IMG/VR virus record: IMGVR_UViG_3300025168_000644
Location: 1 to 24,406 of that record
Length of the DNA stretch: 24,406 nucleotides
Direction: 5' to 3' (one strand)
From: a virus
Positions 3,001 through 20,978 of this stretch are shown piece by piece. Every line of letters starts with the position of its first letter. Positions within the stretch are counted from its first letter, which is position 1. Under the pieces are notes generated by a model. The model saw only the letters and a program-made list of their open reading frames with translations, did no database searches and had not been told where the DNA came from. Position numbers and translations under genes: made by a program.

Positions 3001-3364
3001 AGGTCTTTACATAAGAGGAACAAATCCTGATTCCAATCCACCCTATGCACCTGCGTATGTGATGAAGGTTTCAGCGAGTGATACTGTCCCTATCAGTAAA
3101 GGACCGAAGATTATTGGAATAAGTGATACGTCATTCGATTCTTCATTACTCAATAATGAAGTTACAAGACTCGTCATAAGTGAAAATACATTGCAACATT
3201 ATCGTTCTGATGCACCAAGAAGGCGTTCTCGCATTGATAGTGATGAGAAGGTAAAGCGCATGGACTTTACCGTACTCCCACGGTTCTCACAAGCCCTGCA
3301 CCCTAAAGGACATAAAGGAGATGTAACCTACAACACATCAGACCACACAGGTGATGGCTCATGA
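2..3364 (+). CDS. Large virion structural protein, 5' end cut by window edge
   Basis: The frame is open from the first bases of the window, so the N-terminus lies outside; the TTG at 17 is only the first possible start codon seen inside. About 1,120 residues are visible. I see no enzyme motif. The protein is rich in Asn, Thr, Ser, Gly and aromatic residues, as extended beta-structured tail or capsid-decorating proteins are. Two copies of a roughly 70-80 residue Thr/Ala/Asn-rich module, each opening with FTDATCDT, occur near residues 310-380 and 835-915. Similar modules with a GTGI and LSAN-T-LTF pattern are common in marine phage structural proteins (recalled, not searched). The stop overlaps the next start (ATGA at 3361), so it is the first visible gene of the tail operon. 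A tail, baseplate or surface protein is the best reading; the exact role is not known. Confidence 0.8.
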   Translation, partial: GTKIRLTRAYDFRPAGTIFNDTRTSVITHSLLADNQAFNGSRDTNSLHMGDAYLCLWHPNLGRPHTFYSDSSRTWLNPLTDRAVLSKPLNSMPEHFETVHYHDATYYASLGPFAFNIATPTKPSTILTKAPSGASTPTAPMTVIGNGTTNAFSSTVSLSANKILSQINTGSSPALAVSDLINIDDETFSITAITGSHTITYTNPNGGGAQSILATVYTLERSAAHTTIDSNVKTGADGSTSSATQSSGAPLLNHYWPCGSRGGPLTSRLDGYGYVSASWDYPLEYTSDGPVWVDHDDDGSYAVSLGITKSVYDNFTDATCDTSNTDATVTIDSTTKLAVGMGVSGTGIASGATVLSITNATTFELSANATASNTNTTLTFTPVKTRTRPFGYRFSLRQPYNKPQWALYGMRAYREASITGSNTIAGYQHGPLVQQETQTWTYAGGSGLGNSTYPNTYVGIMERQTNFSGMLGVDKPEWQVRYGNGMRMTRAFGCPVRTLRNASTVVRDWWGDATGKSIDSIHDAVKYYLVDWWGNTRGEDIRRYPVRGFGIRPAWDSADAYEYDRVSDRTPYQRLYNNGQPLVNLKTITDLADSNVTDGLKVPRFGGRLNNVNNNDANNLVDVFMPTHAQRIGDMGNGRGVRYPTAFNEDLITDVDEPYHTTGVVLSHNTAEPNTSEGLIRARNDVLQPNEVPRGISARLGIDENGLLKPEAVASDRVEDFSGETPHKDAVSRSSPRIGIDGENIEGVDDNMMAINTEAHSLHTDRNVGQRVVLQGGLTAGSQTLGNYDLTSLTFAGQPQGGVMRYTHTSNFNPLGGTYLAETRNYLSPVSDKDWGAFTDATCDTNHSSGLSDGSSTSVRHITMDSTAKLVVGMTVTGTGIPSSATVAAINNATCFTLSANTTATNANTTLTFGPPNLHSSNPYATSTFVGTSQTNYTDKTITYMLRTVRLLDKQHVEIFRPNNALHSSSPQYGANYFSATGGGKYGLFLYETSNGRATSGLYIRGTNPDSNPPYAPAYVMKVSASDTVPISKGPKIIGISDTSFDSSLLNNEVTRLVISENTLQHYRSDAPRRRSRIDSDEKVKRMDFTVLPRFSQALHPKGHKGDVTYNTSDHTGDGS
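935..1147 (+). repeat. Copy 1 of duplicated Thr/Asn-rich beta module
   Basis: This encodes a module starting FTDATCDT and ending in LTFTP within the large structural protein. It shares residue pattern and local DNA identity with the copy at about 2503-2743. The 17-bp string tttacagatgctacttg is identical in both (944-960 and 2514-2530). Confidence 0.75.
2503..2743 (+). repeat. Copy 2 of duplicated Thr/Asn-rich beta module
   Basis: This encodes a second module starting FTDATCDT, with an insertion of about 10 residues near its start relative to copy 1. It then follows the same order: DSTAKLVVGM, GTGIPSSATV, LSANTTATN, LTFGP. It is probably an Ig-like or beta-sandwich surface insertion that was duplicated within the gene. 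Confidence 0.75.
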
Positions 3365-3699
3365 TGGATTACGACTTTTGTGATTGTTGTACTCCTATGG
3401 AAAATGCATTTGCATTAATGAAAGCAAAAAAGAAGAGTAAGCCGTTTCACGGTTATAACCCTAACAAACATCATCGAAAGGGTGGCTTGAACGCTAAAGG
3501 TCGTGCCGCCGCCAAGCGTAAGAGTGGTGCAAACCTCAAACCTCCCGTGACAACCAAACCAAGTAAACTCAAGCCCGGTTCAAAGAAAGCAAAGCGTCGT
3601 AAGTCGTTTTGCGCTCGCATGTCGGGTGTCAAAGGCCCGACCAGCAAAGGTGGTAAACTCACACCAAAGGGAGCATCCTTGAAGCGATGGAACTGTTGA
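3361..3699 (+). CDS. Small basic Cys-containing protein, DUF6321-like
   Basis: 112 residues, very rich in Lys, Arg and Gly. The N-terminus carries a CDCC cluster. The C-terminal two thirds has the run HRKGGLNAKGR, then KSFCARMSGVKGP, a GGKLTPKGASL stretch and the ending RWNC. I recognise this as the DUF6321-like pattern found in marine T4-like cyanophages and related viruses; the function there is unknown as far as I recall. The start overlaps the upstream stop as ATGA, with GGTGA about six bases before it. Its high positive charge and place among virion genes suggest nucleic-acid binding inside the particle or a role in assembly, but that is inference. The conserved Cys residues could bind metal. 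Confidence 0.75.
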   Translation: MMDYDFCDCCTPMENAFALMKAKKKSKPFHGYNPNKHHRKGGLNAKGRAAAKRKSGANLKPPVTTKPSKLKPGSKKAKRRKSFCARMSGVKGPTSKGGKLTPKGASLKRWNC

Positions 3700-3708
3700 G
3701 GGCTTGAT

Positions 3709-4332
3709 ATGATATTTGAGAAGGCGTGGAACTTTCTCAAGGCTTTACGCCAATCCGAATTGGGTGAGTTCCACCCCGACTTTCCGAGTTCGTATGGGCC
3801 GATGACGATGCTTTCCAGTCAACCCACTCAAGCAACCATAGACAGTAGGATGAACGACCGAGTTCGTTTTCAAGACTTTGACAAAAAGCACACACAACCT
3901 TACGAGTCGTTTGTCCATCAAGGTATGACAGGTAAACCTCCTTCTCCTAATGCTTTAGATTGGGAAAAAGCGTTTAGGGAAAAACAACCCCACATCATAC
4001 CCTTTAACTTTGAAGAAGGAGACACAGGGAATTGGTTTCGGCCAGCAATGCAACGAAGTCCATCTTCTGTGAGAAATCACAAAAAAATGTTGGAAATGAT
4101 GGGTTTTGGCCCATCGGTAATCAGTTATGGCAGGGATAACCCGCACAGAACAGTAGGTGTTCGTATGCCTTTAGACGAATCAATGGGAATGTTTCGTGAT
4201 AAAGGTTATGAGAATGAGGACGCTGAAGCCTTCATCTATGGCGACATTCCACCCGAAAGGCTCGTTATGGTTCCCGGTATGGGTGATACAGTCAATACTT
4301 GGCCGGGTGGCTTAGGGAGGGTTGACGAATGA
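3709..4332 (+). CDS. Hypothetical protein in tail operon, 207 aa
   Basis: I do not recognise a family with confidence. The protein is soluble, with no signal peptide or membrane segment. It is rich in Pro, Met, Phe and Asp, with an N-terminal amphipathic stretch (FEKAWNFLKAL) and a C-terminal segment AEAFIYGDIPPERLVMVPG. That last motif resembles the ending of several small phage proteins, in which an acidic residue is followed by a beta strand and PP-x-x-I/L; some of these have ADP-ribosyltransferase-like folds, but this is too weak to name a function. A GAGGG ribosome-binding site precedes the ATG. The stop overlaps the next start (ATGA at 4329), so it is co-translated with the baseplate-hub-like gene and may be an assembly or virion accessory protein. 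Confidence 0.75.
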   Translation: MIFEKAWNFLKALRQSELGEFHPDFPSSYGPMTMLSSQPTQATIDSRMNDRVRFQDFDKKHTQPYESFVHQGMTGKPPSPNALDWEKAFREKQPHIIPFNFEEGDTGNWFRPAMQRSPSSVRNHKKMLEMMGFGPSVISYGRDNPHRTVGVRMPLDESMGMFRDKGYENEDAEAFIYGDIPPERLVMVPGMGDTVNTWPGGLGRVDE

Positions 4333-5729: not shown

Positions 5730-6073
5730 TGCCAATAAGTAATCACATACGCCGCTTACTCATCGAAACCATTAGAGATAACATCAATGAAGTTGTCTTG
5801 GGATTTGATGGTACACCAGCGACCAGCGACGATGGTTCAGCGGGGCGACCTGCCATCACACTCACACCTACGGTTACGATAGTAGATGACGGGACACTTC
5901 TAATAGAGGCAACACTTCCACACACAGAAACCTTTACTGAACCCATAAAGGAAGTATACATTCAAACAAGGGGTACAACGAGTTTTACTCCTGTAAGTAG
6001 ATTCACCATTAAACCAATTACTAAAAATAATTCTAATGAAGTGAAAATTGAAATAACAATTGAGGTGGCATAA
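5729..6073 (+). CDS. Small tail/baseplate-associated protein, 114 aa
   Basis: Family not recognised. An N-terminal helix (NHIRRLLIETIRDNI) is followed by an Asp/Gly/Ser linker and then a Thr-rich beta-strand region ending in KIEITIEVA. This helix-then-beta-sandwich plan is seen in small baseplate or fibre-attachment proteins. It starts inside the hub gene's stop (TAATG, with an AGGTGG ribosome-binding site), and its own stop overlaps the fibre start at 6073. A link between hub and fibre is a reasonable inference from position but is not shown by any motif. Confidence 0.8.
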   Translation: MPISNHIRRLLIETIRDNINEVVLGFDGTPATSDDGSAGRPAITLTPTVTIVDDGTLLIEATLPHTETFTEPIKEVYIQTRGTTSFTPVSRFTIKPITKNNSNEVKIEITIEVA

Positions 6074-9027
6074 TGACAGGTAATCCGTTATCAGGACATA
6101 CAAAAAAGAATATGACATTAACGACTCATACGAGTCTAAGCACTCCTACAATAGAAGATGGGTTATTTGATGGGGAACCAATCATCAGTCCCAGTATAAC
6201 AAATGCATACGAAGGAATACATGGAAATGGAATTATCCTTGAAGAAGATACTGCAAAGGGGGATGGGGATAGAAACAATCCAATTAACTTGGCAGGTCGA
6301 GTAAATGGTGTTGCATCAAGTTCTCATTTCAGGGTAAATGTGTTAGGTGGTTATGCTGTTATAGACGGTGTAATGTTTGCCTTCGGAGGTTCAAATACAG
6401 ACATAGACCTTATTTCTACAAGCGCACATAAGGTTGGTTCAGCCACCGCACTAAATTCGGGTCAAGAAGCATTAGTAGTAATTTATGTTAATTCAGATAA
6501 TGATAATAATTCAATAGGATGGGAAATAGGAAGTCCTGTTACTGCTGGTTCATCATACCCACTTGCACCATCTTCATTCCTTAATGACCCTCTATCCTCA
6601 TTGAATGTAAAACAATCTATTGTACTCGCTACATTGCGTTGCGTTTACGAATCGGGTTCAGGTAATTTAAACATTAAAGTAACTGAAATAAATGATAAGA
6701 GAGTATTCATCAGACCTTCTCCTATTTATCTATCACCAGTAACATCAGGCGCAGTAGCGGCCACAGATGCTATCGAATCCCATACAGCCTTAGATAGTCT
6801 ACATGGTGCTGATGAAACAGGTGCTATGTCTGCAAGTCGCTTTGGTGCTATATGGGAATCTTATGGGACTCAACTATCAAGCACTACTGCGCCTGATAAC
6901 GATAAAAGTGTTTTGTATTATAGTGGAACACATGCGGCTCGATTTACACGTTCAATCTTTGACCGTGTATTGACAAGCACAGCAACGAGCATAACACTCA
7001 AATCTACTGATGCTAATATTCTACTTCTAACCCCCGGTGGAAGTGCTACAGTTACTACAAGTGGTTCTTTCCCTGCTGGTTATATCATTGAGATGCGGAA
7101 TCTACATGCGAGTAACGCTGTAGTATTTGCTCGTGCTTCAAACTATTCTGTATCGGGAGGAACGCTTACAAGGTTCGTTTGTACTACAAGTCACGCTTCT
7201 ACTCCTGTGTTCAGCGTCTTATCAGACGACTCAATAGAAACTGTACAACTTGCTAATGATTCTGTTACCACAGCGAAAATAGTTAATGCAAATGTTACCA
7301 CAGCAAAAATTGCTGATGATGCAATCACCTCGGCTAAGATTGCTGACGGTGCTGTGATAGCGGCGGCTATTGGTGCTGATGCTGTAACAGCGGCTAAGAT
7401 TGGCGATGATGTAATTAATAGTGAACATATTGCCGCTGGCGCAGTTGACTTGGAACACATGTCTGCAAACTCAATAGACTCCGACCAATATGTTGATGCT
7501 TCTATTGATACAGCACACATAGGGAATAATCAAATTACGAATGCGCTGATGGCTGACAATGCAATTGATACCGCTGAACTTGCGGCTTCTGCTGTCGAGA
7601 CAGCGAAGATAAACAATGCCGCAGTAACCGCTGATAAACTGGCGAGCAATGCTGTTACAACAGCAAAAATAAATGCTGATGCTGTGACGAATGCTAAGAT
7701 TGCTGATGATGCTGTTGATACAGAAAACATTGCTGATGATGCAATTACAGCCGCACTTATTGATGACGGTGCTATACTTACGGCGGCTATTAGTGATGAG
7801 CAAATCACCCTTGCTAAACTCGCTCACGCCGCCGCTAATACAGTTCTCGTAAGAGATGCAAACTCCGCTGGCGACCCATCGTTCAAAGCCGTGACAAACA
7901 CGCAAATCCTAATTGGTGACGGTACAGGATTCACCGCCGCCGCATTATCTGGTGATGCAACAATGACTAATGCAGGTGTGATAGCAATCGGTAACGATAA
8001 AATAACTGCCGATATGATTGGTGACAATGTAATTAATAGTGAACATTACGTCGCCGCTTCAATTGATAATGAACACTTGGCAGACAACGCTGTGGACTCC
8101 GACGAGATAGCGGCTGATGCAGTTATCACATCAAAGATACTGAATGCAAATGTTACGACAGCGAAAATTGCCGATGATGCAGTTACCGCAGATAAGTTGG
8201 CCGCAAACGCTGTAGTCAATGCAAGTGTAGCCGCAAGTGCCGCAATCACATTTGCTAAATTAGAACCCCTTGATTCAACAAAGATACTTGTTGGTAATGC
8301 TTCAAATGTAGCAACAGAAGTTGCAGTAAGCGGTGATGTCACTATGGCAAACACTGGTGCTGTTACTATCGCCGCTGATGCTGTCACCTATGCTAAGATA
8401 CAAAATGTATCAGCAACAAACGTGTTGTTAGGAAGAGATAGTACAGGTGCAGGTATCGTTGAAGAAATATCTGTTGGAGATGTACAAACCATGTTGAATG
8501 TCGCTGATGGTGCTACTGCTTATACTGATTCCGATGCTGTTAATGCTAATGCAACACTCATAAACAATGTAACTGTATCAGCATTGAACAACCTTAATTC
8601 TATAAATGCTATCACCGCCAAAGCATCTAAGTTTTCTGCTTATCTTTCAGGGAATCAAAGTTACAGTTCAGGAGCGACAAAGATAACACACAACGCAGTT
8701 TTGTGGAATGTAGGTTCTGACTTTAGCACAAGCAATAATGAATATACTGCACCGAGAGATGGTTATTATCTTGTAGCATGTAGTTATTATGCTTCTTCTA
8801 CACCAACATGGGCGATGTCTCTAATTTACGTATCACCCGCATCAGGTGGAGGGTATGCTATTCGGCTTCGTAGGTTGAGTTCTAACGGTCAAGATACGCA
8901 TATATCATCAGTAATAAAATTAAGTGCGGGTGATAAGGTTGCTCACTACGCTCATGCTTCGGGAAGCACAACTATACAAGCGGCTCTCACTACTCTCACT
9001 TACTTTCAAATTACGGAGATGCTATGA
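6073..9027 (+). CDS. Tail fibre / receptor-binding protein with AKIAD repeats and C1q-like tip
   Basis: 984 residues in three parts. Residues 1 to about 300 form an attachment-like region with many beta strands (GIHGNGIILEEDT, GGYAVIDGVMFAFGG). Residues about 384-800 are a long run of short degenerate repeats of the form A-D-D-A-I-x-x-A-K-I, interrupted by ILIGDGTGF and ILVGNASNV modules with an SGDVTM-type strand, as in many marine phage fibres. Residues about 850-984 (KFSAYLSGNQSYSSG, NEYTAPRDGYYLVACSYYAS, IKLSAGDKVAHYAH) fit the C1q/TNF-like jelly-roll used as a trimeric receptor-binding tip. The protein probably recognises the host surface. An AGGTGG ribosome-binding site and a TAATG overlap support the start. 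The long antisense open frames under the repeats reflect codon periodicity, not genes. Confidence 0.85.
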   Translation: MTGNPLSGHTKKNMTLTTHTSLSTPTIEDGLFDGEPIISPSITNAYEGIHGNGIILEEDTAKGDGDRNNPINLAGRVNGVASSSHFRVNVLGGYAVIDGVMFAFGGSNTDIDLISTSAHKVGSATALNSGQEALVVIYVNSDNDNNSIGWEIGSPVTAGSSYPLAPSSFLNDPLSSLNVKQSIVLATLRCVYESGSGNLNIKVTEINDKRVFIRPSPIYLSPVTSGAVAATDAIESHTALDSLHGADETGAMSASRFGAIWESYGTQLSSTTAPDNDKSVLYYSGTHAARFTRSIFDRVLTSTATSITLKSTDANILLLTPGGSATVTTSGSFPAGYIIEMRNLHASNAVVFARASNYSVSGGTLTRFVCTTSHASTPVFSVLSDDSIETVQLANDSVTTAKIVNANVTTAKIADDAITSAKIADGAVIAAAIGADAVTAAKIGDDVINSEHIAAGAVDLEHMSANSIDSDQYVDASIDTAHIGNNQITNALMADNAIDTAELAASAVETAKINNAAVTADKLASNAVTTAKINADAVTNAKIADDAVDTENIADDAITAALIDDGAILTAAISDEQITLAKLAHAAANTVLVRDANSAGDPSFKAVTNTQILIGDGTGFTAAALSGDATMTNAGVIAIGNDKITADMIGDNVINSEHYVAASIDNEHLADNAVDSDEIAADAVITSKILNANVTTAKIADDAVTADKLAANAVVNASVAASAAITFAKLEPLDSTKILVGNASNVATEVAVSGDVTMANTGAVTIAADAVTYAKIQNVSATNVLLGRDSTGAGIVEEISVGDVQTMLNVADGATAYTDSDAVNANATLINNVTVSALNNLNSINAITAKASKFSAYLSGNQSYSSGATKITHNAVLWNVGSDFSTSNNEYTAPRDGYYLVACSYYASSTPTWAMSLIYVSPASGGGYAIRLRRLSSNGQDTHISSVIKLSAGDKVAHYAHASGSTTIQAALTTLTYFQITEML
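7228..8400 (+). repeat. Degenerate short coding repeats of the tail fibre shaft
   Basis: About 40 copies of a roughly 30-bp unit encode variants of DDAITxAKI, typically gatgatgctgtt...acagcgaaaatt. The units are imperfect, but some segments are identical: the 20-bp string atgtaattaatagtgaacat occurs at 7409-7428 and 8027-8046. This looks like expansion by duplication within the shaft-coding region. Confidence 0.8.
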
Positions 9028-9188
9028 TGACACCACAAGAGATGACAACGGGAATGCACAACGCAGGTTTTACTCAATTCGATTATCCTGAACATGGTCT
9101 GTATTTTATTGACGGGACTATCAACCTCAATGAATGGCCGAGCAGTTGGGGTACACCACCTACACAAGCCGTCATAAACAGTTGGTAA
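9024..9188 (+). CDS. Small hypothetical protein after tail fibre, 54 aa
   Basis: The 54-residue ORF begins ATGATG, overlapping the fibre stop by four bases, with GGAG five bases upstream. The product is acidic to neutral and rich in aromatic and turn-forming residues, with FTQFDYPEHGLYFIDGTINL in the middle. No family is recognised. The tight coupling to the fibre gene suggests a fibre chaperone or tip-associated peptide, which is inference. The overlapping antisense frame at 9006-9242 has no comparable start signal and was rejected. Confidence 0.6.
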   Translation: MMTPQEMTTGMHNAGFTQFDYPEHGLYFIDGTINLNEWPSSWGTPPTQAVINSW

Positions 9189-9189
9189 T

Positions 9190-9264
9190 ATGACAATTCT
9201 TATCTTTTTCTTGATAGCGTTCATAGCAGGTTTTGTTGCCACATGGCTTGCTACTGTTGATTAA
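9190..9264 (+). CDS. Possible 24-aa single-span membrane peptide
   Basis: ATG directly follows the stop of the 54-aa gene (TAATATG). The peptide, MTILIFFLIAFIAGFVATWL followed by ATVD, would be one hydrophobic helix of about 20 residues. Holin- or spanin-like small membrane peptides sit at the end of some tail operons, but a peptide this short cannot be classified. There is no clear ribosome-binding site. The same bases contain a T-rich run (9203-9211) that could instead be a transcription terminator for the + operon. The last 14 bases overlap the end of the convergent zinc-ribbon gene. Confidence 0.3.
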   Translation: MTILIFFLIAFIAGFVATWLATVD

Positions 9265-9421: not shown

Positions 9422-10942
9422 CTATTCCATGCCTCGACGTGCAATGATGTCATCAATGCGTAGGATAGCATTCGTAACTTCCGCCGCACTCAATACCGCT
9501 TGTCGTACAAGTTCTACAGGCTCGATAACACCGAGCGCAAGAACGTCGCATACACCACCGTTCTCGACATCAGGACCTACAGAAGTATTACCTTCCATTA
9601 GTTGGTGTCTCATTTCAAGAATCGTATCAAGTGGGTCTTGACCAGCATTCTCAGCGATAGTCGCAGGAATGCTCTCTAAAGCATCTGCAAAGGCTTCGAT
9701 AGCCATCTGTGCTCGACCACCCACTTGAGCCGCATGGTTGCGTAGATAGACAGCCATACGAGCGTATGCGTTACCTGCACCAACAACAATCCTATCATTA
9801 GCCATGACCAACGATACAACTCCAAGAGCGTCATCAAACCCACGTTCGACTTCTTCAAGTGTGTGCGAAGTAGCACCACGTAGTACGAGTGTTGCTTCCT
9901 TACTTTCACCAGTATTATTAGAAACAAACAAATGCCATACATCATTGTGCTTCTCTCTTGTAATGTTGGTTGAAGTGTATGATGAGATGTCATCAACTGT
10001 TTGGAAGATGACGCTATCAGTAGCACGTTTTAGCGCACGTATAACTGATTCAGGAGTACGACGTACAGCCATAATTCCATGCTTCTTGAGGAAGGCGCAT
10101 ACGTGGTCGTTTACGCTATCACGTACAAAGACAATACCATGCTTGCCGTCGAATGCTTCTACGATACTCTTTGCATTTGAAATCAAATCAGCCTTACCTG
10201 CGGATTTGTATGATGAATAAGACGAAGCATCAATCTGTACCTGTACATTCTCTTCACTCTTTTCAACATCAAGTCCTGTGTTGATAAGCATGAAATGACG
10301 ATAGGTTTCCTTTTCATCCTCTACTTCAAGTACGAAATCCTTGTTGACAATCACACCACCAAAGAGGTATGAGTCATCAAGCGAACCACCGGGGAACGAT
10401 ACCACACGTACTGATTCAGCACTTCCTGCTTGTTCGACAGCAGACACACATAGTTCTGATACCTTGTCGAGAGCGTTCTCAAGAGTCTTACCAGTAATCG
10501 CAGTACGTGCAATCTTAAGGTATTCTTCTCTTCCTTCGGCTAACATAGCAACCTCATTACTTAGGTATGTAGTCGCCATGAGAGATGCCTCGTGATACCC
10601 ACGACAGATGACGTTAGGGTGTAAACCACGAGCGAAGAGAGATTCTGTGTTACCCAGTAACGCACCTGCTAATACGACAGTACTTGTTGTACCATCGTAG
10701 CACAGGTTCTCTTGCGTCTTTGCTACTTCTGCAATCATCTTACCACCGGGATGTGATACGTCTACTTCACGTAGAATGGTTGCGCCATCGTTTGTTACGA
10801 TAACGTTCCCATGCCCGTCTACAAGCATCTTATCCATACCCATTGGTCCTAACGTGGACTTCACGGTATCAGCAATTGTACGTGCCGCACGTATGTTCAT
10901 CTGTTGTGCATTTGTTCTTCCTATGTCCTGTTCTTTTTTCAT
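9422..10942 (-). CDS. Group II chaperonin (thermosome/HSP60-like) subunit
   Basis: 506 residues from the ATG at 10942, which has GGTGA five bases upstream; a GTG at 10951 is the alternative start. Hallmarks of the TCP-1/thermosome family are present: TLGPMGMDKMLVD at residues 30-42, NDGATIL at 51-57, DGTTST at 83-88, GLHPNVICRGY, FDDAL (conserved nucleotide-site Asp), AQMAIEAFADALESIPATIA, and ILRIDDII near the end. Thermosomes form a two-ring ATP-driven folding chamber with a built-in lid. Compared with cellular thermosomes (about 540-550 residues) it is short, ends at RRGME without the Gly/Met-rich tail, has Tyr instead of Gly before DGTT, and shows VGAGNAYAR where GGGA-E is usual. It probably folds viral capsid or tail proteins, alone or mixed with host subunits (inference). 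The gene follows the exonuclease with overlapping ends. Confidence 0.92.
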   Translation of the reverse strand: MKKEQDIGRTNAQQMNIRAARTIADTVKSTLGPMGMDKMLVDGHGNVIVTNDGATILREVDVSHPGGKMIAEVAKTQENLCYDGTTSTVVLAGALLGNTESLFARGLHPNVICRGYHEASLMATTYLSNEVAMLAEGREEYLKIARTAITGKTLENALDKVSELCVSAVEQAGSAESVRVVSFPGGSLDDSYLFGGVIVNKDFVLEVEDEKETYRHFMLINTGLDVEKSEENVQVQIDASSYSSYKSAGKADLISNAKSIVEAFDGKHGIVFVRDSVNDHVCAFLKKHGIMAVRRTPESVIRALKRATDSVIFQTVDDISSYTSTNITREKHNDVWHLFVSNNTGESKEATLVLRGATSHTLEEVERGFDDALGVVSLVMANDRIVVGAGNAYARMAVYLRNHAAQVGGRAQMAIEAFADALESIPATIAENAGQDPLDTILEMRHQLMEGNTSVGPDVENGGVCDVLALGVIEPVELVRQAVLSAAEVTNAILRIDDIIARRGME

Positions 10943-10947
10943 TGTGT

Positions 10948-11550
10948 TCACCAGTTTACTTCTATGTCTACTAATTCTCCCGTGTCTACTGCACGAGAAC
11001 GAATGTAGCCTTCGCTCTTACCAAATTGGTATAGGTCATATGTGAGTTGAGCATCGCTTAAGCAATACTTAGCCACCTCATCATATTTCCCCTGCCTCCA
11101 TGCTTTAGGCGCATCCTCACTATTCATAAGTTTGTTGTCGCTTAAGGTATGCTTAACCAAGTCTTTGAGGCTGGTCATGACTTTCTGTTGTGTCATAGCC
11201 GCTTTGTTGACGAGGTTCTTTGTATCAATGACGCTTTCTGTTTTCAGCATATCACCTGCTGTCCAACAGTCCAATGCATCCCGTAATACAGGGAGGTCGA
11301 ATGCTTTGATGTTATGACCGATAATGACACCGCCCTTCTTGACGTGTGCATCTAAGTCATCACCTAATGTGCGAGGGTGTAGTGCCTTTACTGTGGCATC
11401 TACAGACAATGATTTGTTACAGTAGATGTTTCCATCCTCTCCGTTCCATGTAGCCACTACTGTAGGCTCGAAAGATGCGGTCTTATCCCATCCCCCTATT
11501 TCCCAAGAGTAGTTGCCCGTTTCAATATCTAATGCCATTATGTCACTCAT
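10948..11550 (-). CDS. DEDDy 3'-5' exonuclease (DnaQ/RNase H-like)
   Basis: 200 residues from the ATG at 11550, which has GGTGA five bases upstream; a GTG at 11559 would add three residues. All exonuclease motifs are visible: motif I ALDIET (D8, E10), motif II IIGHNIKAFDLP (D85), and motif III KYCLSD (Y162, D166), which marks the DEDDy subfamily. These enzymes remove nucleotides from 3' ends with two metal ions, for proofreading or end processing. The gene overlaps the end of the candidate helicase gene by eight bases and the start of the thermosome. Since PolB here has its own, partly diverged exonuclease domain, this protein may provide extra proofreading or recombination end-processing. 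The family is clear; the precise job is not. Confidence 0.88.
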   Translation of the reverse strand: MSDIMALDIETGNYSWEIGGWDKTASFEPTVVATWNGEDGNIYCNKSLSVDATVKALHPRTLGDDLDAHVKKGGVIIGHNIKAFDLPVLRDALDCWTAGDMLKTESVIDTKNLVNKAAMTQQKVMTSLKDLVKHTLSDNKLMNSEDAPKAWRQGKYDEVAKYCLSDAQLTYDLYQFGKSEGYIRSRAVDTGELVDIEVNW

Positions 11551-12946
11551 TCTTTTCACCTTTTCTTCTGTAATACATTCTTCCTGAACTCTTCTTTCGA
11601 TTGAATAATTTCGCCGAGTAGTCCTTGAAGTGCCGTTGCGCTGTACTCTTGCTTACACCTGTGTTAGACATATACATATTCCATATACTCATCTGTAATC
11701 TCCAACCATCACCCTCATCATCAATCTCATATGGGGCGCATGCCTTGTATGCTTTGAGCATGTCATCGTGAATCTTACCTTCCTTAGCCTTACTTCCATT
11801 GATTTCAACGGAATCCTCAAGCCAAGCAATGAGGTTTTGGAATAGGTCAATGAGAATCTCGTGAGCCATGTCTACGTGGTCCGCAGTAATCACCCACTTC
11901 TCATCAAGAATAGCCATGTGAGTAGCGAAGATACCTAAGTAGTTCTCAACAGCAGGGGTGAACGAAGCAACAATTTCAGACATGCTCGCATCCATGTTGC
12001 GAAGCAGGTCGTATATCTCATCAGACGCTTGATACAATGCTGTATCAAAGTCAGGCGCAGGGGTGAACATAGTCCACATCTTTTCCTGTACCAAATCTTC
12101 TCTTTCATCTTCGGATAGTTCATCCCATTGGGTGAATGTTATCTCACCCATATCGAGTAGACGGTCCCGCATTCTCTTCTCACTTGTTCTGAAATAATCA
12201 TACAAGTCATCCTTCGTGTAATCAATCTCTTTTGATTGTTTAAAGAACGTACCAAGCCTACGTGTACTCACCTCTTGTCTTGCGTCCATGTCCCAATGCG
12301 CCCAGTAAAGCAATACACGTTGGAAGATACCCTTAGTCAGTACGTAGTCCTTAACACCCTTCGGTGGGTACGTAGTAATCCATAGCGACACCATAGAAGG
12401 ACACTCAACCTTGTTGCCCTTCATGTGCTTAACGAGTGTGTTGTTCCCGCTTCCTACAGGGTTACACGCTGTTTGTAGATACAATACAGTCTCTTGACTG
12501 TGCTTGTTTGGAGTAAGTAGAATAGAACCTTCATCGAAATTGATACCCTTACGACCTGCGAGCAAACCCGGTACTGTCTCCATCTCACCAGTAGGCTTTC
12601 CATGCTCATCTACAATCTGTTCTGTAGAGCCTATCAGTCCTGCGTCTGTACCTGATGCAAACAACTCGATTGGAATACCGACATTTTCCATAATGTCTCC
12701 AACGAAGTTCCATGCAATGGATTTACCAGTCCTTGATGGCTGAATCCAAAAGACGTGAACACGAGGGTCGAGGTGGGTATCACCAGTCGGAATACGAACA
12801 TATGGTAATGCGAGTTGTCCTTGAATGTAAAAGAATGACAGTAGACCCGGTATCTCATTCTTCATTGATGTTCTTGAGAAGTGCGTAAGATACGCATCCA
12901 AAATTGGAAACTTCTGTACTGCTCTATATTCCTTTACTGATGTCAT
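11543..12946 (-). CDS. P-loop ATPase, candidate replicative helicase
   Basis: 467 residues from the ATG at 12946. The longer open frame to 13024 would run through the promoter and into the ERCC4 gene, so the later start is preferred. Walker A is QPSRTGKS (residues 69-76), Walker B is INFDEG (135-140), a sensor-like ITTYPP follows at about 190-195, and an arginine-finger-like GIFQRVLLY lies at about 206-214. The C-terminus looks like a winged helix (IWNMYMSNTGVSKSTAQRHF) with a basic tail. This organisation matches phage and archaeal AAA+/RecA-type helicases such as DUF3987-like or MCM-like proteins, but I cannot assign one family. In a genome with polymerase, clamp, loader and primase and no other obvious helicase, the replicative helicase role is the natural inference. 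A 22-bp promoter element lies 14-35 bases upstream. Confidence 0.75.
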   Translation of the reverse strand: MTSVKEYRAVQKFPILDAYLTHFSRTSMKNEIPGLLSFFYIQGQLALPYVRIPTGDTHLDPRVHVFWIQPSRTGKSIAWNFVGDIMENVGIPIELFASGTDAGLIGSTEQIVDEHGKPTGEMETVPGLLAGRKGINFDEGSILLTPNKHSQETVLYLQTACNPVGSGNNTLVKHMKGNKVECPSMVSLWITTYPPKGVKDYVLTKGIFQRVLLYWAHWDMDARQEVSTRRLGTFFKQSKEIDYTKDDLYDYFRTSEKRMRDRLLDMGEITFTQWDELSEDEREDLVQEKMWTMFTPAPDFDTALYQASDEIYDLLRNMDASMSEIVASFTPAVENYLGIFATHMAILDEKWVITADHVDMAHEILIDLFQNLIAWLEDSVEINGSKAKEGKIHDDMLKAYKACAPYEIDDEGDGWRLQMSIWNMYMSNTGVSKSTAQRHFKDYSAKLFNRKKSSGRMYYRRKGEKNE

Positions 12947-12959
12947 AATTCCACAACCT

Positions 12960-12990
12960 TTTTCTCTTTGCCGATTTATAAGGCTAAACC
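12960..12990 (-). promoter_or_regulatory. Archaeal TATA promoter of the helicase-thermosome unit
   Basis: On the - strand this reads TTATAAATCGGCAAAGAG followed by AAAA, in the short gap between the ERCC4 stop (12984) and the ATG at 12946. The TATA-like core is centred about 30 bases before the ATG, so a start site about 25 bases downstream would give a nearly leaderless mRNA. The 22 bases 12960-12981 are identical to those upstream of PCNA (20849-20870). Confidence 0.75.
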
Positions 12991-13682
12991 TTTTTTCTCC
13001 TTGCTTGGCGTACCTCTTCCTCACTTGTTAATACTTTAACGAGTAAACTACGTCGGGTGTCGCCCAACCCTTTTACCTTCTTTAGTGATTCAGGGAATAC
13101 CATTTCTTCGATACTGCCGCATTGTTCTAACAAGCGTTCAGCAATCTCCCTCCCAATGGAGGGTACAGCCAACAGCATATCCAAACGGATGTCATTAGAC
13201 GAGACACGGCGTAGTGCGTGTGCGCCATGCTTGCTCGCTGGCTTGTGGAGTTTGTCATGTAGTTTCACTACAAACATTGCCGCCTCACTTAGATTAGGCG
13301 TGTAGAATACTTGGCACTCAAAGTCAGACATAACTCTCGCTATCGTACCCATGAGTTCATTTTGTATTCGTGAATATGTAACCTTCTTACCATTCTTCTT
13401 TGCCATTGCAACGTACTTGTCAATGGACCCGTGAACGACTAAGAAGAATCGTTCGTAATTGGCATCCATGTTATCGAGTTGTCGCCATAGATGACCGTTG
13501 TGTGATGATTGGAATAGGTCGCCAATACTCTTCGCTTCTACAAGCGCACCACCGAGTAAGTAGTCTCCAACGAGCAATGGCTTACGGACTATGTTCAGCC
13601 CCGCCTTCGTTGCTCGTCGCTCTATGGACTCGCATAGGCTTCCTCTCTCGTTGCTATCAATAATCAAATCAGGCTTAGGCAT
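12984..13682 (-). CDS. ERCC4 (XPF/Mus81/Hef-type) nuclease with HhH domain
   Basis: 232 residues. The N-terminal ERCC4 nuclease domain shows IIDSNERG (D9, E12, R13), VGDYLLGGALVEAKSIGD (residues 38-55) and HLWRQLDNM. The C-terminal 65 residues hold tandem helix-hairpin-helix motifs (AVPSIGREIAERLLEQCGS and KKVKGLGDTRRSLLVKVL). XPF-type enzymes cut branched or flap DNA at single/double-strand junctions, and archaeal forms act on stalled forks and recombination intermediates. The length is that of a minimal archaeal XPF without the helicase part. One oddity is the core motif ERKxxxD, which reads EAKSIGD here, with Ala replacing the usual Arg. The start overlaps the upstream stop (TAATG) with GGAGG before it. 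The role is probably resolving replication or recombination intermediates. Confidence 0.9.
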   Translation of the reverse strand: MPKPDLIIDSNERGSLCESIERRATKAGLNIVRKPLLVGDYLLGGALVEAKSIGDLFQSSHNGHLWRQLDNMDANYERFFLVVHGSIDKYVAMAKKNGKKVTYSRIQNELMGTIARVMSDFECQVFYTPNLSEAAMFVVKLHDKLHKPASKHGAHALRRVSSNDIRLDMLLAVPSIGREIAERLLEQCGSIEEMVFPESLKKVKGLGDTRRSLLVKVLTSEEEVRQARRKKV

Positions 13683-13924
13683 TACTCTTCCTCCTCTATT
13701 GGTATGTTATGTTTAACGTGATTCACACAGTAGACACTATGTTGTGTGCGTAACTGTTTGCATCTTCTCTTTCCACCACTCGTAAGTGATTTACATTGAT
13801 ACTTCTTTCTCACTTCTTCTTTTTGTTTACAGACATAACATATACGTAGATAACCATCAAAGTATCTATCGGGCTTTACTGTCCCTCTATACTGCCCACA
13901 AACGCTACACGGTACAGATGGCAT
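13682..13924 (-). CDS. Small Cys-rich putative zinc-binding protein, 80 aa
   Basis: Cys pairs occur at CSVCG (near residue 6) and CYVCK (near 29), and a second cluster C-x4-C-x10-C-x2-H (CKSLTSGGKRRCKQL, then CVNH) follows. Two small zinc sites are therefore likely. The rest is strongly basic, and the protein ends in an acidic IEEEE. I recognise no named family. It is sandwiched between primase and ERCC4 nuclease with TAATG overlaps on both sides, which suggests coordinated production and a DNA-related role, but no function can be stated. It could be a cofactor of either neighbour. Confidence 0.8.
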   Translation of the reverse strand: MPSVPCSVCGQYRGTVKPDRYFDGYLRICYVCKQKEEVRKKYQCKSLTSGGKRRCKQLRTQHSVYCVNHVKHNIPIEEEE

Positions 13925-15012
13925 TACATTACCCCCGTACCGTCGTGATAATTACACTTACCAACACATAGACCTTCTTGGTAAAGTGTGGTACAGGAAG
14001 CATGAGTATGCCCCGCTTTGACAATATGAGTAACTCGCATAGCGGTATAATCACGGTCAAAGTCCACCCAGTTCTGTTGAGAACATATGTCAACAATGGA
14101 TGGAACATGAGTCAATCGTTCTTCTTCTGTTACCTTCCAAGCAGGGAAGAACATTCTGAATCTATCGGCAAGGAATGACACGAAGTGATACCTTGCTCTA
14201 TCAGTAGGGTTACCACCGTTCATTGCCGCTTGCGCTAAACATGGTAAGATGTGTATGTCATCATACGCTACAGTAGGTAAATCGACAGGCTTGATGTCTG
14301 TCATTGTCATCAATGGGCTTTGTATGATTTCAAAGTCAAGTCGTTCTCCACCCATACTGATGTAACCAGTATGCGGAACCATTGCTTTGTCCATCAGACC
14401 ATCATACGTTAGTGTAGTGAGTTCTTCACTTGTTAATGGTATAGTCCAGCAATCTCTCTTCGCATTGAATGAGTTGGGTATGCGTATCATACCGCTTGTA
14501 TCAAACGCTACTGTAGGGTCATTGCAACGAAACGTACCCAAGACCTTCTCCCACTTGTTGATGAGTACTCTCCCTGAATACTTTACTCGTGAAAGTTCAG
14601 AACCATCGGCGGGTTCAATTGTTTCTGAAAGAGGAACCCATACGTGAAATCCTCCACCAGTAAACCATACGAAGTGTTCAATGTTGTTATTGGATAGGTG
14701 TCGGTGTAGACCGATTACTTCGGAGTGTGGTATCTCAAAGGGTACATCAACACCACGATTCTTGAAATCCTTACAGTCGAAGTCCATTACAAAGTGGTGG
14801 ATTCGTGGAGTGTTGTAATCGACACGATGATGCTTAGGGGCTTGTGTTTCATTGTAACCATAAGCCGTAAAGTATACGTTACCACTTCCGTTCTTGCCAC
14901 GCCAATACTGTTGTAGTTCATCGCTATCCTTTACAATTCGTCGCCACCCACGTTCACCATTAGCAGGTAATTCCAAGACCTCTCTTGGAAAATCAATGGG
15001 TACGAACGGCAT
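13924..15012 (-). CDS. priS-priL: Fused archaeo-eukaryotic primase (PriS-like catalytic plus PriL-like Fe-S domain)
   Basis: 362 residues. The first half is an AEP/PriS catalytic domain: MDFD with the metal-binding D77-x-D79, a WFTGGGFHVWVP loop at 116-127, and the third acid D171 followed by MIRIPNSFNAKR. The second half (about 250-355) resembles the PriL C-terminal domain, with an ILPCLAQA opening (C258), a central helical part with C310, and HASCTTLYQEGLCVGKC (C340, C349, C353). Four of these cysteines would hold a 4Fe-4S cluster. The enzyme makes the primers for DNA synthesis. In most archaea the two parts are separate subunits; single-chain fusions are known in Nanoarchaeum. GGTGA sits four bases before the ATG. 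Gene context with PolB, clamp and loader fits well. Confidence 0.85.
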   Translation of the reverse strand: MPFVPIDFPREVLELPANGERGWRRIVKDSDELQQYWRGKNGSGNVYFTAYGYNETQAPKHHRVDYNTPRIHHFVMDFDCKDFKNRGVDVPFEIPHSEVIGLHRHLSNNNIEHFVWFTGGGFHVWVPLSETIEPADGSELSRVKYSGRVLINKWEKVLGTFRCNDPTVAFDTSGMIRIPNSFNAKRDCWTIPLTSEELTTLTYDGLMDKAMVPHTGYISMGGERLDFEIIQSPLMTMTDIKPVDLPTVAYDDIHILPCLAQAAMNGGNPTDRARYHFVSFLADRFRMFFPAWKVTEEERLTHVPSIVDICSQQNWVDFDRDYTAMRVTHIVKAGHTHASCTTLYQEGLCVGKCNYHDGTGVM

Positions 15013-15016
15013 GTAA

Positions 15017-15319
15017 TCACCGGAATGCTCGTAGGAAGTCGTCTAAGTCTTGTTTCAATTTTTCCATTGTTTCTACAATCTCATTATCCATCAGATAACG
15101 TGCATGAATAGTGTATAGAATATCGAGAGGACCAACCGTATCAGGGAAGCCTGTCTCTTCGTCTAACCATGAATCAATGGTTGTCTGTCTATATGATGTA
15201 CGAATGAAAGGAACCCTGTTAGGTAAGTTACCATTCTCTTTGACTATGATTCTTACCGAATACTCTTCATCTAAAAATTCCTCTAAGAAACGTTGTATTG
15301 CTAATCCTTGTGCTTTCAT
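15017..15319 (-). CDS. Hypothetical protein, 100 aa, between nuclease and primase
   Basis: No family is recognised. It is an acidic, mixed alpha/beta protein: an N-terminal helix (IQRFLEEFLDEEY), a strand (SVRIIVKE), and a C-terminal helix rich in Glu, Leu and Asp (VETMEKLKQDLDDFLRAF) that could form a short coiled coil. It starts on the stop of the Fe-S nuclease (TAATG, GGAGG ribosome-binding site) and ends four bases before the primase. It could be a small partner of either, but nothing in the sequence decides this. Confidence 0.8.
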   Translation of the reverse strand: MKAQGLAIQRFLEEFLDEEYSVRIIVKENGNLPNRVPFIRTSYRQTTIDSWLDEETGFPDTVGPLDILYTIHARYLMDNEIVETMEKLKQDLDDFLRAFR

Positions 15320-16335
15320 TATATCTCCTCCTTTATGTTGTCTAAGTAGTCATCGGTGAGCGACCAAAATTCACAGTCGCTTTTGTAATCACACCAATTG
15401 CATTTTAGTTTCTGTTCCTCCATTGGAACTCCTTTTTTCAATCTTCCTAAGAATGGGTCAGGTGGGAACTCCATGTTCAGATGAGCCTTCACTAACTTGA
15501 CGAGATTGTTTTCTACGCTACGCATAGCCAACTTACCCTTCTTATCAGTAGCAGACTCATAGTGCAACTTCGCACCAGTCCCGCCTTCTATGCCCCCACC
15601 CGGAAACTCCCATCCCCAATGGGTGATAGGGAGTAGTTCATGGTGTGGACTGTTCTCCAACATCATCTTGTAGAATGCCATCTCCTTACGCATGTTTCCC
15701 GGCTTGCTACTGTTGTACTTACCAGTCTTTAATTCCATTAGAGCAAAGCCGTTCTCTTCGCTTTTGAAGAGTGTATCAATGAATCCTGATAGATGAATAG
15801 GAATAGGCTCATCATCAACGATGACATACCTATTACCGTGAATGTTTGACTCAACACCTACAGGTCGCCAGTCCTTACCCTTAGTAGCAAGTAACCGTCT
15901 GAACTGCCAATCAAGCCATTGTTGAATCTGTTCCTCCTCACCGAACTCATACGGTTCAGGAGGGGTGGGCGCAGATGATAGGAAGAGTTCTCTCGCAGTA
16001 TCTATATCTTCTGTACGTAGTATCTCGCTTTCCTGTTGGCTTGTGAAGTTACCCCAAAACCATTCCATGAGGTCGTGGACATTCAATCCACGAGTGTGAT
16101 AATAACGGCTCTCGCCTCGTAGTCCCTTGAACTTCTCAAGATAGTATTGTTGTGGACACCAGCCGAATGTACCTATGCTTGACTTTGTAATACGGAGAAT
16201 CTTGTCTTGGTCCTCCTTTGGATTCCATGCGTATGTACTACGCTTGTACCAGTCCACTTCTTCTGTGTGGCCTGTCTCCTCCCCGTACTCGTCTATTAAT
16301 TGGCGACTATCATCACCAGTAGGATTCCATCTCAA
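15319..16335 (-). CDS. Cas4/RecB-like PD-(D/E)XK nuclease with Fe-S cysteines
   Basis: 338 residues from TTG at 16335, chosen because it overlaps the upstream stop by four bases (TTGA) and has GGAGATG five bases before it. The longer frame from GTG at 16413 overlaps the upstream gene by 82 bases. Motifs of the RecB/Cas4 family: GTFGWCPQQYYLEKF (C60), RGLNVHDLMEW (H87), IHLSGFIDTLF (D187), MELKTGK (E201, K203) and RKEMAFYKMML. A C-terminal CNWCDYKSDC adds three Cys (C312, C315, C321), which with C60 form the typical 4Fe-4S set. Such enzymes trim DNA ends, usually as 5'-3' or 3'-5' single-strand exonucleases. With Sak4-like ATPase and OB-fold protein nearby, recombination or end-resection is likely. 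No cas1 or cas2 is present, so a CRISPR role is not supported. Confidence 0.88.
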   Translation of the reverse strand: MRWNPTGDDSRQLIDEYGEETGHTEEVDWYKRSTYAWNPKEDQDKILRITKSSIGTFGWCPQQYYLEKFKGLRGESRYYHTRGLNVHDLMEWFWGNFTSQQESEILRTEDIDTARELFLSSAPTPPEPYEFGEEEQIQQWLDWQFRRLLATKGKDWRPVGVESNIHGNRYVIVDDEPIPIHLSGFIDTLFKSEENGFALMELKTGKYNSSKPGNMRKEMAFYKMMLENSPHHELLPITHWGWEFPGGGIEGGTGAKLHYESATDKKGKLAMRSVENNLVKLVKAHLNMEFPPDPFLGRLKKGVPMEEQKLKCNWCDYKSDCEFWSLTDDYLDNIKEEI

Positions 16336-16520
16336 TCTTTCATCTCCATCTCGATGAGTTTCTGTAGGTATACGGCTAAGTCCATTGCTTCTTCTTGTGC
16401 GTGTATGAGCCACTTAAGACGAGATAGTTTCTCATCCTCCATACTCACCCCATACTTTGCAAGGCCGACCTGCGCTCGTTCCTGTATCTTCTCGCATACT
16501 TCATCTTCTATTCTACTCAT
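16332..16520 (-). CDS. Small MazG-like (all-alpha NTP pyrophosphatase) protein
   Basis: 62 residues from ATG at 16520, which overlaps the upstream stop as ATGA and has GGAGG seven bases before it; a longer frame begins at 16538. The helix-loop-helix pattern ERAQVGLAKYGVSMED then LKWLIHAQEEAMDLAVYLQK matches the short phage versions of the MazG/dUTPase-like all-alpha fold, with E43, E44 and D47 as likely magnesium ligands. MazG-type enzymes hydrolyse (d)NTPs to monophosphates and help clean or rebalance nucleotide pools. At 62 residues this holds only the central helices, so it would need to oligomerise to be active. Confidence 0.65.
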   Translation of the reverse strand: MSRIEDEVCEKIQERAQVGLAKYGVSMEDEKLSRLKWLIHAQEEAMDLAVYLQKLIEMEMKD

Positions 16521-16831
16521 TGGTTTTCCTCCCGCCAATTCAAATAATCAATTACTGCATCTGCTGTATCACCATTATCGGGAACTAAAAATTCAGACGA
16601 CATGTGTGAAAGAGGACCTTCATCTATGGCTACATCCTTACTTAATTCCCATTCAGGAGGTAACAAAGGAACTTCTTCATAACTCCCTATGACTTCTATA
16701 CGCCATTTGTCATATGTTTCAGGGGAAGTAAAAAATCCAACTGGAATTTTAAAATCACCATCTCCATCGGGAAAATGATAAAGTATCTTTCCCCATCTCA
16801 TCTCTTCTTCGTTCATCTCTTCTTCGTTCAT
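16517..16831 (-). CDS. Acidic hypothetical protein, 104 aa
   Basis: No family is recognised. The product is acidic and rich in Trp, Pro and Glu (FPDGDGDFKIPVGFF, EVPLLPPEWELSKDV) and is probably a small beta-rich domain. The start region carries a perfect 15-bp tandem duplication (16802-16831) that gives two ATG codons, so translation could begin at residue 1 or 6; a third ATG follows at once. GGAGATGATGAG precedes the first ATG. The stop overlaps the MazG-like start. Confidence 0.75.
   Translation of the reverse strand: MNEEEMNEEEMRWGKILYHFPDGDGDFKIPVGFFTSPETYDKWRIEVIGSYEEVPLLPPEWELSKDVAIDEGPLSHMSSEFLVPDNGDTADAVIDYLNWREENQ
16802..16831 (-). repeat. Perfect 15-bp tandem duplication at a start codon
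   Basis: Two adjacent copies, 16802-16816 and 16817-16831, read ATGAACGAAGAAGAG on the - strand. They duplicate the start codon and the first five residues (MNEEE) of the 104-aa protein. Confidence 0.9.
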
Positions 16832-16835
16832 CTCA

Positions 16836-17240
16836 TCATCTCCATATGTGTCTTAGTTTGTTCTTTGGGTCAAGTAACTTTATCGAATCAATTGTCTTAT
16901 CCTCTAAAGTAATTATTCGTGTATTGATTGTAGCCATCCTTGAGTCAACCATTGACTTAACATCGACTTCCAAATCACCATCTCTCCGTCGCTCGATTTC
17001 ATCTATCTTAGTCGATACTTCGGCTTGTACGATAGTACCTATGTATGATATTTTACTCTCTAAAGTAGCCAAGCGGTCCTCGATTGCTTGCATACCATTC
17101 TGAATATTGGTGAACACCTTTGTCATTTGAGCAGTAAACGTCCTCTTATCCCTACAATCAAAACACAATTTGTTTGGGTCTGTATTCGTGGAAGGGGTGA
17201 AAATCCCTGAACATACTATGCACTTCTTTTCAAGGGTCAT
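16836..17240 (-). CDS. Zinc-finger plus coiled-coil protein, 134 aa
   Basis: The start is set at ATG 17240, with GGTGA five bases upstream; ATG 17252 is an alternative that adds four residues. The N-terminus has CIVC and LCFDC, a four-Cys zinc site separated by about 15 residues. From about residue 40 onward there is a long heptad-like helix (VFTNIQNGMQAIEDRLATLE, then KIDEIERRRD, then ATINTRIITLEDKTIDSIKL), most likely a coiled coil. A zinc module on a coiled-coil stalk suggests an oligomeric scaffold or DNA-binding protein; no named family is recognised. It overlaps the end of the upstream gene by 11 bases. Confidence 0.75.
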   Translation of the reverse strand: MTLEKKCIVCSGIFTPSTNTDPNKLCFDCRDKRTFTAQMTKVFTNIQNGMQAIEDRLATLESKISYIGTIVQAEVSTKIDEIERRRDGDLEVDVKSMVDSRMATINTRIITLEDKTIDSIKLLDPKNKLRHIWR

Positions 17241-17448
17241 CGTATTCACCATCCTCGATTAGTGATGCGATACTCATTGTCTCCATCGCTGTACAGATTT
17301 GTACAAGCACCTTCGTGAGAGTGAGCCTCATTTGCATTCTGCTGTTATCTTCTTTCATTGCATCCACGATACCCTTCACCGCTACATCTAATGTATCGAG
17401 TGTGTGTAAAGCGGATTCTCTTAGTCGTTCTATTTTATCAGACATCAT
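17230..17448 (-). CDS. Small helical hypothetical protein, 72 aa
   Basis: No family is recognised. Nearly all of it is predicted by eye to be alpha-helical (RLRESALHTLDTLDVAVKGI, then LTLTKVLVQICTAMETMSIA), ending in an acidic tail. It starts within the upstream stop (ATGATG with GGGGG before it). It lies in a run of small genes just downstream of PolB. Confidence 0.7.
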   Translation of the reverse strand: MMSDKIERLRESALHTLDTLDVAVKGIVDAMKEDNSRMQMRLTLTKVLVQICTAMETMSIASLIEDGEYDDP

Positions 17449-17678: not shown

Positions 17679-17682
17679 TTTA

Positions 17683-20837: not shown

Positions 20838-20848
20838 ACAATCAACTC

Positions 20849-20879
20849 TTTTCTCTTTGCCGATTTATAAAGGTGGAAA
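20849..20879 (-). promoter_or_regulatory. Archaeal TATA promoter of the PCNA-PolB unit
   Basis: The - strand reads CCACCTTTATAAATCGGC then AAAGAGAAAA. TTTATAAA (20864-20871) is a consensus archaeal TATA box centred about 29-30 bases before the PCNA ATG at 20837, giving a very short leader. The 22 bases 20849-20870 match the helicase promoter perfectly. Confidence 0.8.
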
Positions 20880-20978
20880 GGAAGAAGGAGGATAAAGTGA
20901 TAGAAAAACCCCTGTCATGGTCGATGAAAACCAGAAGTCGGAATGAAATTTCCCTCTTATTACTTGACAAACTTTCCC

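Follow-up and report, generated by a model that had tools for sequence, protein, structure and literature searches.

C1q heads and modular, hypervariable fibres are known in marine phages (PMC3909814) and cryoconite phages (PMC7468147). Adhesin variation is known in haloarchaeal viruses, and the tail adhesins of archaeal tailed viruses have already been noted to resemble those of phages (PMC8651126). In the metaviromic islands of marine phages, pelagiphages among others, a C1q-like head lies at a hypervariable host-recognition locus in an otherwise conserved genome (PMC3909814). In V22 and A5, distantly related phages of Alteromonas, a tip and its downstream chaperone are swapped as a module between unrelated virus families (PMC10579305). 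In the Hafunaviridae, a hypervariable adhesin gene sets the host range of an archaeal tailed virus (PMC8651126). Here we describe a fibre gene at positions 6073..9027 (+ strand) of a 24,406-nucleotide stretch of viral DNA, IMG/VR record IMGVR_UViG_3300025168_000644, which we call the window. As we read it, a magrovirus-like archaeal virus uses this product, with its modular stalk and tip, as its receptor-binding tail fibre, and we propose that the C1q-like tip is exchanged as a cassette together with an adjoining mini-gene that encodes 53 amino acids (probability roughly 0.78).

The window locus shares features with each of these systems and differs from each of them. As in the metaviromic islands, a C1q-like head sits at a variable locus of a conserved genome. 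However, those viruses are bacteriophages whose C1q protein is separate from a T7-like tail fibre, whereas in the present archaeal virus the fibre itself ends in the head, which travels with a 53-residue partner gene (PMC3909814). The Hafunaviridae adhesins described are of the glycine-rich T-even type and not of the C1q type (PMC8651126). The fibre-chaperone modules of the Alteromonas phages appear to be the closest parallel for the partner gene, by analogy with a chaperone or cap. Their chaperones are 195-240 residues long and have structure models (PMC10579305), whereas the partner here has 53-57 residues, belongs to no known family, and has a putative role. In the literature searched we found no magrovirus described with a C1q tip, and no description of this 53-residue gene. 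As far as that literature goes, the C1q-type tip in magrovirus-like viruses, its apparent exchange with an unrelated archaeal-type group, and the small companion gene are new.

The tip corresponds to residues 839-984 (146 residues; 8587..9024, + strand) and is a putative receptor-binding head. Its structure was predicted with high confidence (18 sequences; mean predicted local distance difference test score, pLDDT, 90.1; predicted template modelling score 0.84). The predicted structure has the C1q/TNF jelly-roll fold and in a VIA comparison superimposes on the Caprin-2 C1q domain with Z 17.6 and a root-mean-square deviation of 2.1 over 126 residues. Foldseek matched the tip to C1q/TNF proteins and to phage receptor-binding domains, namely the phi812 central spike, the short tail fibre of cyanophage A-1(L) and TM4 gp23. 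Among predicted viral structures it matched marine phage C1q proteins and proteins of the archaeal viruses CGphi46 and HSTV-1. The Pfam C1q profile (PF00386) scored 18.3 bits (E=0.0029), below its curated cut-off of 23.7 bits. We therefore call the tip C1q-like by fold only, and not a member of Pfam C1q. With this qualification, the C1q-like jelly-roll tip proposed in the original prediction, which was made from the DNA letters alone, is confirmed at the level of predicted fold.

HSTV-1 gene 29 and CGphi46 R9TQ80, both from archaeal tailed viruses, are predicted to share the tip fold (E 4e-10 and 3e-10, respectively), but are only 14-18% identical to the tip in sequence. HSTV-1 gene 29 is annotated as a virion component and ends a run of + strand genes, as does the window fibre. 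Among genome contigs, tip relatives were limited to one weak match (38%) in a Chryseobacterium metagenome-assembled genome; that contig (L050) carries two weakly tip-like stretches, at 2622-2912 and 3695-4078. Tip-bearing contigs were sought with two peptide patterns, which tips of greater divergence would escape.

A 53-residue open reading frame (ORF) begins where the fibre ends (9027..9188, + strand). Its ATG overlaps the fibre TGA, and an alternative in-frame ATG at 9024 would give 54 residues. This mini-gene followed all 22 uncut C1q-tip fibres (the window and 21 contigs, including viruses of the unrelated group S described below). Two of the 23 tip contigs (L008/L039 and L010) are cut inside the tip and were excluded from this count. 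In the cases inspected, the mini-gene begins at the fibre stop codon or within a few bases of it. When the mini-gene itself was the starting point of a scan, 15 contigs came back; all 15 carry the tip, and all were already known as tip contigs. The profile for the mini-gene was built from 16 of the sequences, so its scores are not independent, but presence and position are. The protein has two subtypes, which pair with the two subtypes of the tip. Its ratio of nonsynonymous to synonymous substitution was 0.06-0.17 in eight comparisons, which indicates that the mini-gene is under purifying selection. We did not detect it after the non-C1q fibres of L016, L022, L025, L026 and L021. A 63-residue ORF that is similar by eye follows the differing tip of L019, and L067 gave a weak match (E 0.006).

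The mini-gene product had no Pfam match at E≤10, and six such products encoded after C1q tips had no PHROG match at E≤1; the L019 ORF had a chance-level PHROG match (E=0.24). No known chaperone family matched, and we do not file the protein under one. An RNA element or terminator was considered as the source of the conserved DNA after the fibre stop and was rejected: the region had no Rfam match at E≤1 and no terminator-like site, and it is coding. A 24-residue hydrophobic ORF, possibly a small membrane peptide, follows at 9190-9264 and is also found in L013 and L015.

It could be argued that the 53-residue gene is a passenger or regulator that lies in the gap between convergent genes and has no connection with the tip. 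The want of a Pfam or PHROG family and the short hydrophobic ORF that likewise lies downstream in the window, L013 and L015 would fit such a gene. We consider this improbable, given how closely the start codon adjoins the fibre stop, the occurrence of the gene after every uncut C1q fibre even in group S, its non-detection after the five non-C1q fibres, and the agreement of subtypes. Additionally, the DNA matches of group S contigs to the window (L007 and L009) extend past the fibre stop and end at 9167-9168, near the stop codon of the mini-gene. The functional unit thus appears to extend beyond 9027, to the end of the mini-gene at 9188, and the 53-residue protein is probably a tip-specific partner, either an assembly chaperone or a cap. 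Its small size and its location in a convergent gap make the gene easy to miss, although it is conserved and linked to the tip.

The tip appears to have moved between unrelated viruses. The tip scans returned five contigs (L007, L009, L037, L038 and L049) in which the other proteins near the fibre did not match those of magroviruses. L007, L009, L037 and L038 form one group (group S) by their common structural genes, which include the portal, tail tube and tape measure, and the head and tail genes of this group are unrelated to those of magroviruses. The replication genes of L009, L037 and L038 (polymerase, PD-(D/E)XK nuclease, ERCC4 nuclease, clamp loader and others, although not every contig has all of them) are only 22-32% identical to those of magroviruses, and their polymerases gave the best bit score against a haloarchaeal virus. 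In L007 one neighbouring gene is closer to phage proteins, and the terminase matches both phages and haloviruses. We regard group S, with moderate confidence, as archaeal-type siphoviruses.

In a tree of 18 tips, three changes were needed to explain the four group S rows, or two if L049, a long branch, was left out. The group S rows formed one side of a branch in 0% of 200 bootstrap trees, and a tree in which the magrovirus tips were constrained together was rejected (approximately unbiased test, p=0.0005). The L007 tip is 78% identical to that of the magrovirus contig L035, and 77 of 109 synonymous codons are identical where 40.9 were expected (z 7.4). Across the magrovirus tips, L007 gave synonymous z values of 6.1-7.5, and it shares an exact match of 53 bp with the window at 9081. 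The values for L037 were lower (0.8-3.7), suggesting that its exchange is older. Assembly chimeras are unlikely because the tip contigs come from several metagenomes. As the tip tree contradicts the virus lineages and synonymous codons are well kept, these results indicate that the tip moved between magroviruses and group S. The exchange appears to be recent, and to have involved a second archaeal-type group whose structural genes are unrelated.

Close relatives of the window show what changes and what stays. The downstream replication region is common to L002/L012, L011, L013, L014 and L015, at 95.6-96.4% DNA identity with the window. The interior of the fibre in these backbone relatives is about 45-60% identical or has no counterpart. 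The match to the window is broken at 7326-8996 in L011 and L013 and at 7313-8608 in L015, and in L014 the divergence runs from about 4800 almost to the fibre end. L012 is closer: in bins of 150 nt it is 75-94% identical to the window in the anchor region, 97-100% in the decapeptide array described below, and 87-94% in the tip. The N-terminal anchor domain (residues 1-380; 6073..7212, + strand) is kept in relatives with a differing stalk and tip. It is 96% identical to the window in L011, L013 and L015, 62-70% in others, and 35-36% in L006 and L008; a search of PDB structures gave no match to its fold at E≤0.001. Despite their 96% identical anchors, the stalks of L013 and L015 have four decapeptide units, compared with 29 in the window. 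These comparisons show that stalk and tip are replaced in a setting where the anchor and its neighbouring genes are kept.

The stalk of the window fibre is built largely of decapeptide units. The first array (7225..7824, + strand; residues 385-584) consists of 20 consecutive 10-residue units without insertions or deletions, as identified by a position-specific scoring matrix (PSSM) scan, autocorrelation and Tandem Repeats Finder. The second (7993..8202, + strand; residues 641-710; PSSM scan) has seven units, and single units lie at residues 722 and 768. The total is therefore 29 units, compared with 0.98 expected in the shuffled protein, and not the roughly 40 that had been predicted. The 10-residue (30-nt) period gave BLOSUM autocorrelation z values of 11.9, 11.1 and 9.6 at lags 10, 20 and 30 (500 shuffles), and Tandem Repeats Finder calls a 30-nt unit in the gene. 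Chance low complexity as the source of the repeats was ruled out by the shuffles, both for autocorrelation and for unit counts. A collagen-like stalk was also ruled out, as no G-X-Y repeat was found on reading the sequence. The arrays match cyanophage fibres at about 35-41%. No solved structure was found for them; the sole PDB match is to the P-SCSP1u linker considered below. The longest exact direct DNA repeat is 20 bp, with copies at 7409 and 8027, in agreement with the 20-bp identities reported in the original prediction.

Repeat number does vary, as had also been proposed. L012 is longer than the window by 330 nt (11 x 30, in register) between two repeat copies, and the PSSM scan counted 32 units in L012, 29 in the window and 0-4 in seven other relatives. 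The window follows the left L012 copy up to 8108-8116, the best switch point, with two mismatches, and then follows the right copy with two mismatches; with either copy alone, the mismatches across these 200 nt number 36 or 65. The switch lies in the second array. A switch with so few mismatches is a signature of recombination between repeat copies, and the length difference between the window and L012 appears to have arisen in this way, whether by loss or by gain.

Could the repeats then be chiefly a device for slippage or recombination that tunes stalk length, that is, a contingency locus? The in-register 330-nt difference with its clean switch, and the counts of 29 and 32 units, are what such a locus would produce. 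We think this unlikely. The units are degenerate and share at most 20 bp exactly, the first 20 units have kept their number in the three alleles that hold them (the window, L010 and L012), and the seven relatives with 0-4 units have swapped out the array as a whole. A structural stalk with incidental crossover sites would suffice. Replacement of the whole stalk and tip is a commoner variation than a change in repeat number.

Between the arrays and the tip lies a stalk linker (residues 760-823; 8350..8541, + strand) that is widespread in the fibres of marine viruses, including cyanophages. A DUF5907 repeat (PF19264) at residues 750-807 scored 26.9 bits (E=5.4e-6), just below the curated cut-off of 27.0 bits. 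The linker has at least 442 relatives in viral contigs. It is 66% identical over 49 residues in P-SCSP1 cyanophages and, among the matches listed, 75% identical over 51 residues in a contig that encodes a T7 RNA polymerase. It matches P-SCSP1u gp28 (PDB 8i4m), in which a nearly identical linker follows alanine-rich repeats, as in the window fibre. Cryo-electron microscopy of its N-terminus identified gp28 as a trimeric tail fibre, with the distal part not resolved in that structure. It differs from the window fibre in its T7-type anchor, cyanobacterial host and other distal end (PMC10575957).

These matches bear on the proposal, made in the original prediction, that bacterial and archaeal viruses trade the parts with which they recognize hosts. 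On this view, the fibre would be a product of such traffic. Of 79 linker loci examined, four have further magrovirus sequence and 75 share the fibre stretch only, save for a DUF6321 match in four of the 75; together with the linker identities to cyanophages and to the T7-RNA-polymerase contig and the array matches to cyanophage fibres, this is the pattern that traffic would leave. The best 50 of the 79 loci were screened for three markers: DNA polymerase A was found in two, a T7-type RNA polymerase in one, the thermosome in two, and none in 45. However, a tree of 89 linkers accounts for its 13 magrovirus rows with a single change (shuffled mean 12.3; Shimodaira-Hasegawa-like approximate likelihood ratio support 90), which places them on one side of one branch. 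This tree has 64 columns and is weakly resolved, and its magrovirus rows come partly from other searches than its phage rows. Synonymous codon identity was mostly near expectation (median z 1.4 for 88 rows, with seven rows above 3, some of them unclassed contigs); P-SCSP1u gave z 1.0 and L074 z 0.5. As for the tip, no close phage relative emerged from the search: the best phage match is about 30% identical (HMO-2011), and the variant tip of L028 had no match in phages.

We therefore consider present-day traffic across domains improbable, and recent exchange of the linker was rejected on the basis of the tree and the near-saturated codons. A separate clade with near-saturated codons points to an old shared part. 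We conclude that exchange with bacteriophages appears limited to ancient sharing of the stalk linker, or that constraint has preserved the linker as an ancestral part. The old, shared linker (66-75% identity) is the portion of the predicted exchange that stands; recent exchange is not supported. The predicted resemblance to marine phage fibres holds, given the tail fibre PHROGs, the array matches to cyanophages and the structural matches of the tip. A side observation concerns the DUF6321 protein encoded at 3361-3699 of the window: it is 45-49% identical over about 70 residues to proteins in L106, L126, L132 and L133, which otherwise share only the fibre linker with the window.

The setting of the gene agrees with a tail fibre of an archaeal virus. 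The fibre is a single ORF of 984 residues and the closing large gene of a late cluster on the + strand, whose main genes run to 9027; those on the - strand occupy 9422-24370, so that the two clusters are opposed. The product matches the PHROG tail fibre families phrog_892 (E=5e-38), phrog_28766 (E=2e-30) and phrog_21412 (E=8e-22), with scores that come largely from the repeats, and its N-terminal part found homologues in 19 viral contigs. The original description of a large, repeat-rich fibre is borne out by these data. The placement of the gene at the close of the + strand cluster, convergent to the replication cluster, and the tail fibre PHROGs speak for the tail fibre reading.

The first convergent neighbour, which we used as a backbone marker, encodes a group II chaperonin, or thermosome (9422..10951, - strand; Pfam Cpn60_TCP1, E=4e-121). 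The - strand products from 9422 onwards include, besides this chaperonin, an exonuclease, ERCC4 and PD-(D/E)XK nucleases, a family B DNA polymerase and a clamp loader. The window thus has the polymerase, clamp loader and chaperonin of Magrovirales, and its replication and morphogenesis genes lie in oppositely transcribed clusters, as in that order. This gene set and arrangement agree with the profile of Aoguangviridae (magroviruses) of the International Committee on Taxonomy of Viruses (ICTV; PMC10768690), and we therefore regard the virus as magrovirus-like by gene content, which upholds its earlier designation as archaeal. An MCM helicase was not found in the 24.4-kb record, which is a fragment. 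Among the matches listed, the best matches of the family B polymerase in a phage collection are haloarchaeal viruses (22-24% identity). The host would be a marine archaeon, probably a member of the Poseidoniales.

Two further observations concern other parts of the window. A site in the late cluster (3699-4329) appears to hold variable cargo: the window has a 207-residue ORF there with no Pfam family, the site is empty in L013 and L014, and L015 has an HMG-CoA-lyase-like gene (Pfam HMGL-like, E=1e-19). HMG-CoA lyase is listed by the ICTV as an aoguangvirid auxiliary gene (PMC10768690). At 16798-16834, a perfect 15-nt repeat (2.5 copies) spans the start of a - strand ORF (16517-16831).

Jelly-roll trimers also decorate capsids, and the protein might instead sit on the capsid as a head fibre, a turret or another decoration bearing a C1q knob. 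Charybdis elements, which are integrated in Poseidoniales, are reported to bear protrusions that are jelly-roll trimers set on stalks whose length varies (PMC12324425), and attachment of the fibre to the tail is our deduction. Gene order at the end of the late cluster, the tail fibre PHROG matches, the match of the tip to tail receptor-binding domains, and the position of HSTV-1 gene 29, which closes its + strand run in the same manner, make a capsid location very improbable.

Several points weigh against the reading of a receptor-binding tail fibre with a mobile tip cassette. We infer attachment to the tail rather than the head, as well as trimerisation, host binding and the identity of the host. 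The AlphaFold model of the anchor is poor (pLDDT 58). The archaeal label of group S comes from replication genes that are 22-32% identical, and not from a host that is known; whether L049 belongs to this group is less clear. The role of the mini-gene is argued from linkage, position and conservation, with no family match. Finally, one clear repeat-number event was found (the window and L010 compared with L012).

We propose a model that addresses how the fibre is built, how it varies, and how variation may affect host choice. By analogy with known fibres, three copies would join as a trimer, with the N-terminal domain as its attachment to the tail, a long, bendable stalk made of the decapeptide arrays and linkers, and a trimeric knob of C1q/TNF-like heads that binds a molecule on the host-cell surface. 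The 53-residue protein, translated from its overlapping start codon, may be needed by the C1q tip or sit on it, most likely as a chaperone or a transient cap.

The second part of our model concerns variation and is read from the sequences. Stalk length shifts by multiples of the 30-nt unit when repeat copies recombine, of which one case was seen. The tip and mini-gene are swapped as one cassette, also with group S siphoviruses, and such a swap may change the choice of host or receptor.

More tentatively, and at somewhat less than even odds, we suggest that the C1q-like tip and the overlapping 53-residue gene are a mobile receptor cassette among unrelated lineages of tailed viruses that share archaeal hosts. 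The 53-residue protein would then open a new family of tip-specific partners, serving as chaperone, as cap or as a component of the knob, and tip type would track the host and not the lineage.

Viruses of Poseidoniales are abundant, and they are uncultured according to the ICTV profiles (PMC10768690); we found no account of how they recognize their hosts in the literature searched. Our analysis offers a bounded and testable host-recognition cassette for these viruses, in which the receptor-binding end, and not the virus backbone, appears to move between lineages. Trade in the tip and mini-gene could help to account for host changes among archaeal viruses. If tip type does track the host, tips could serve to assign hosts to uncultured viruses of archaea.

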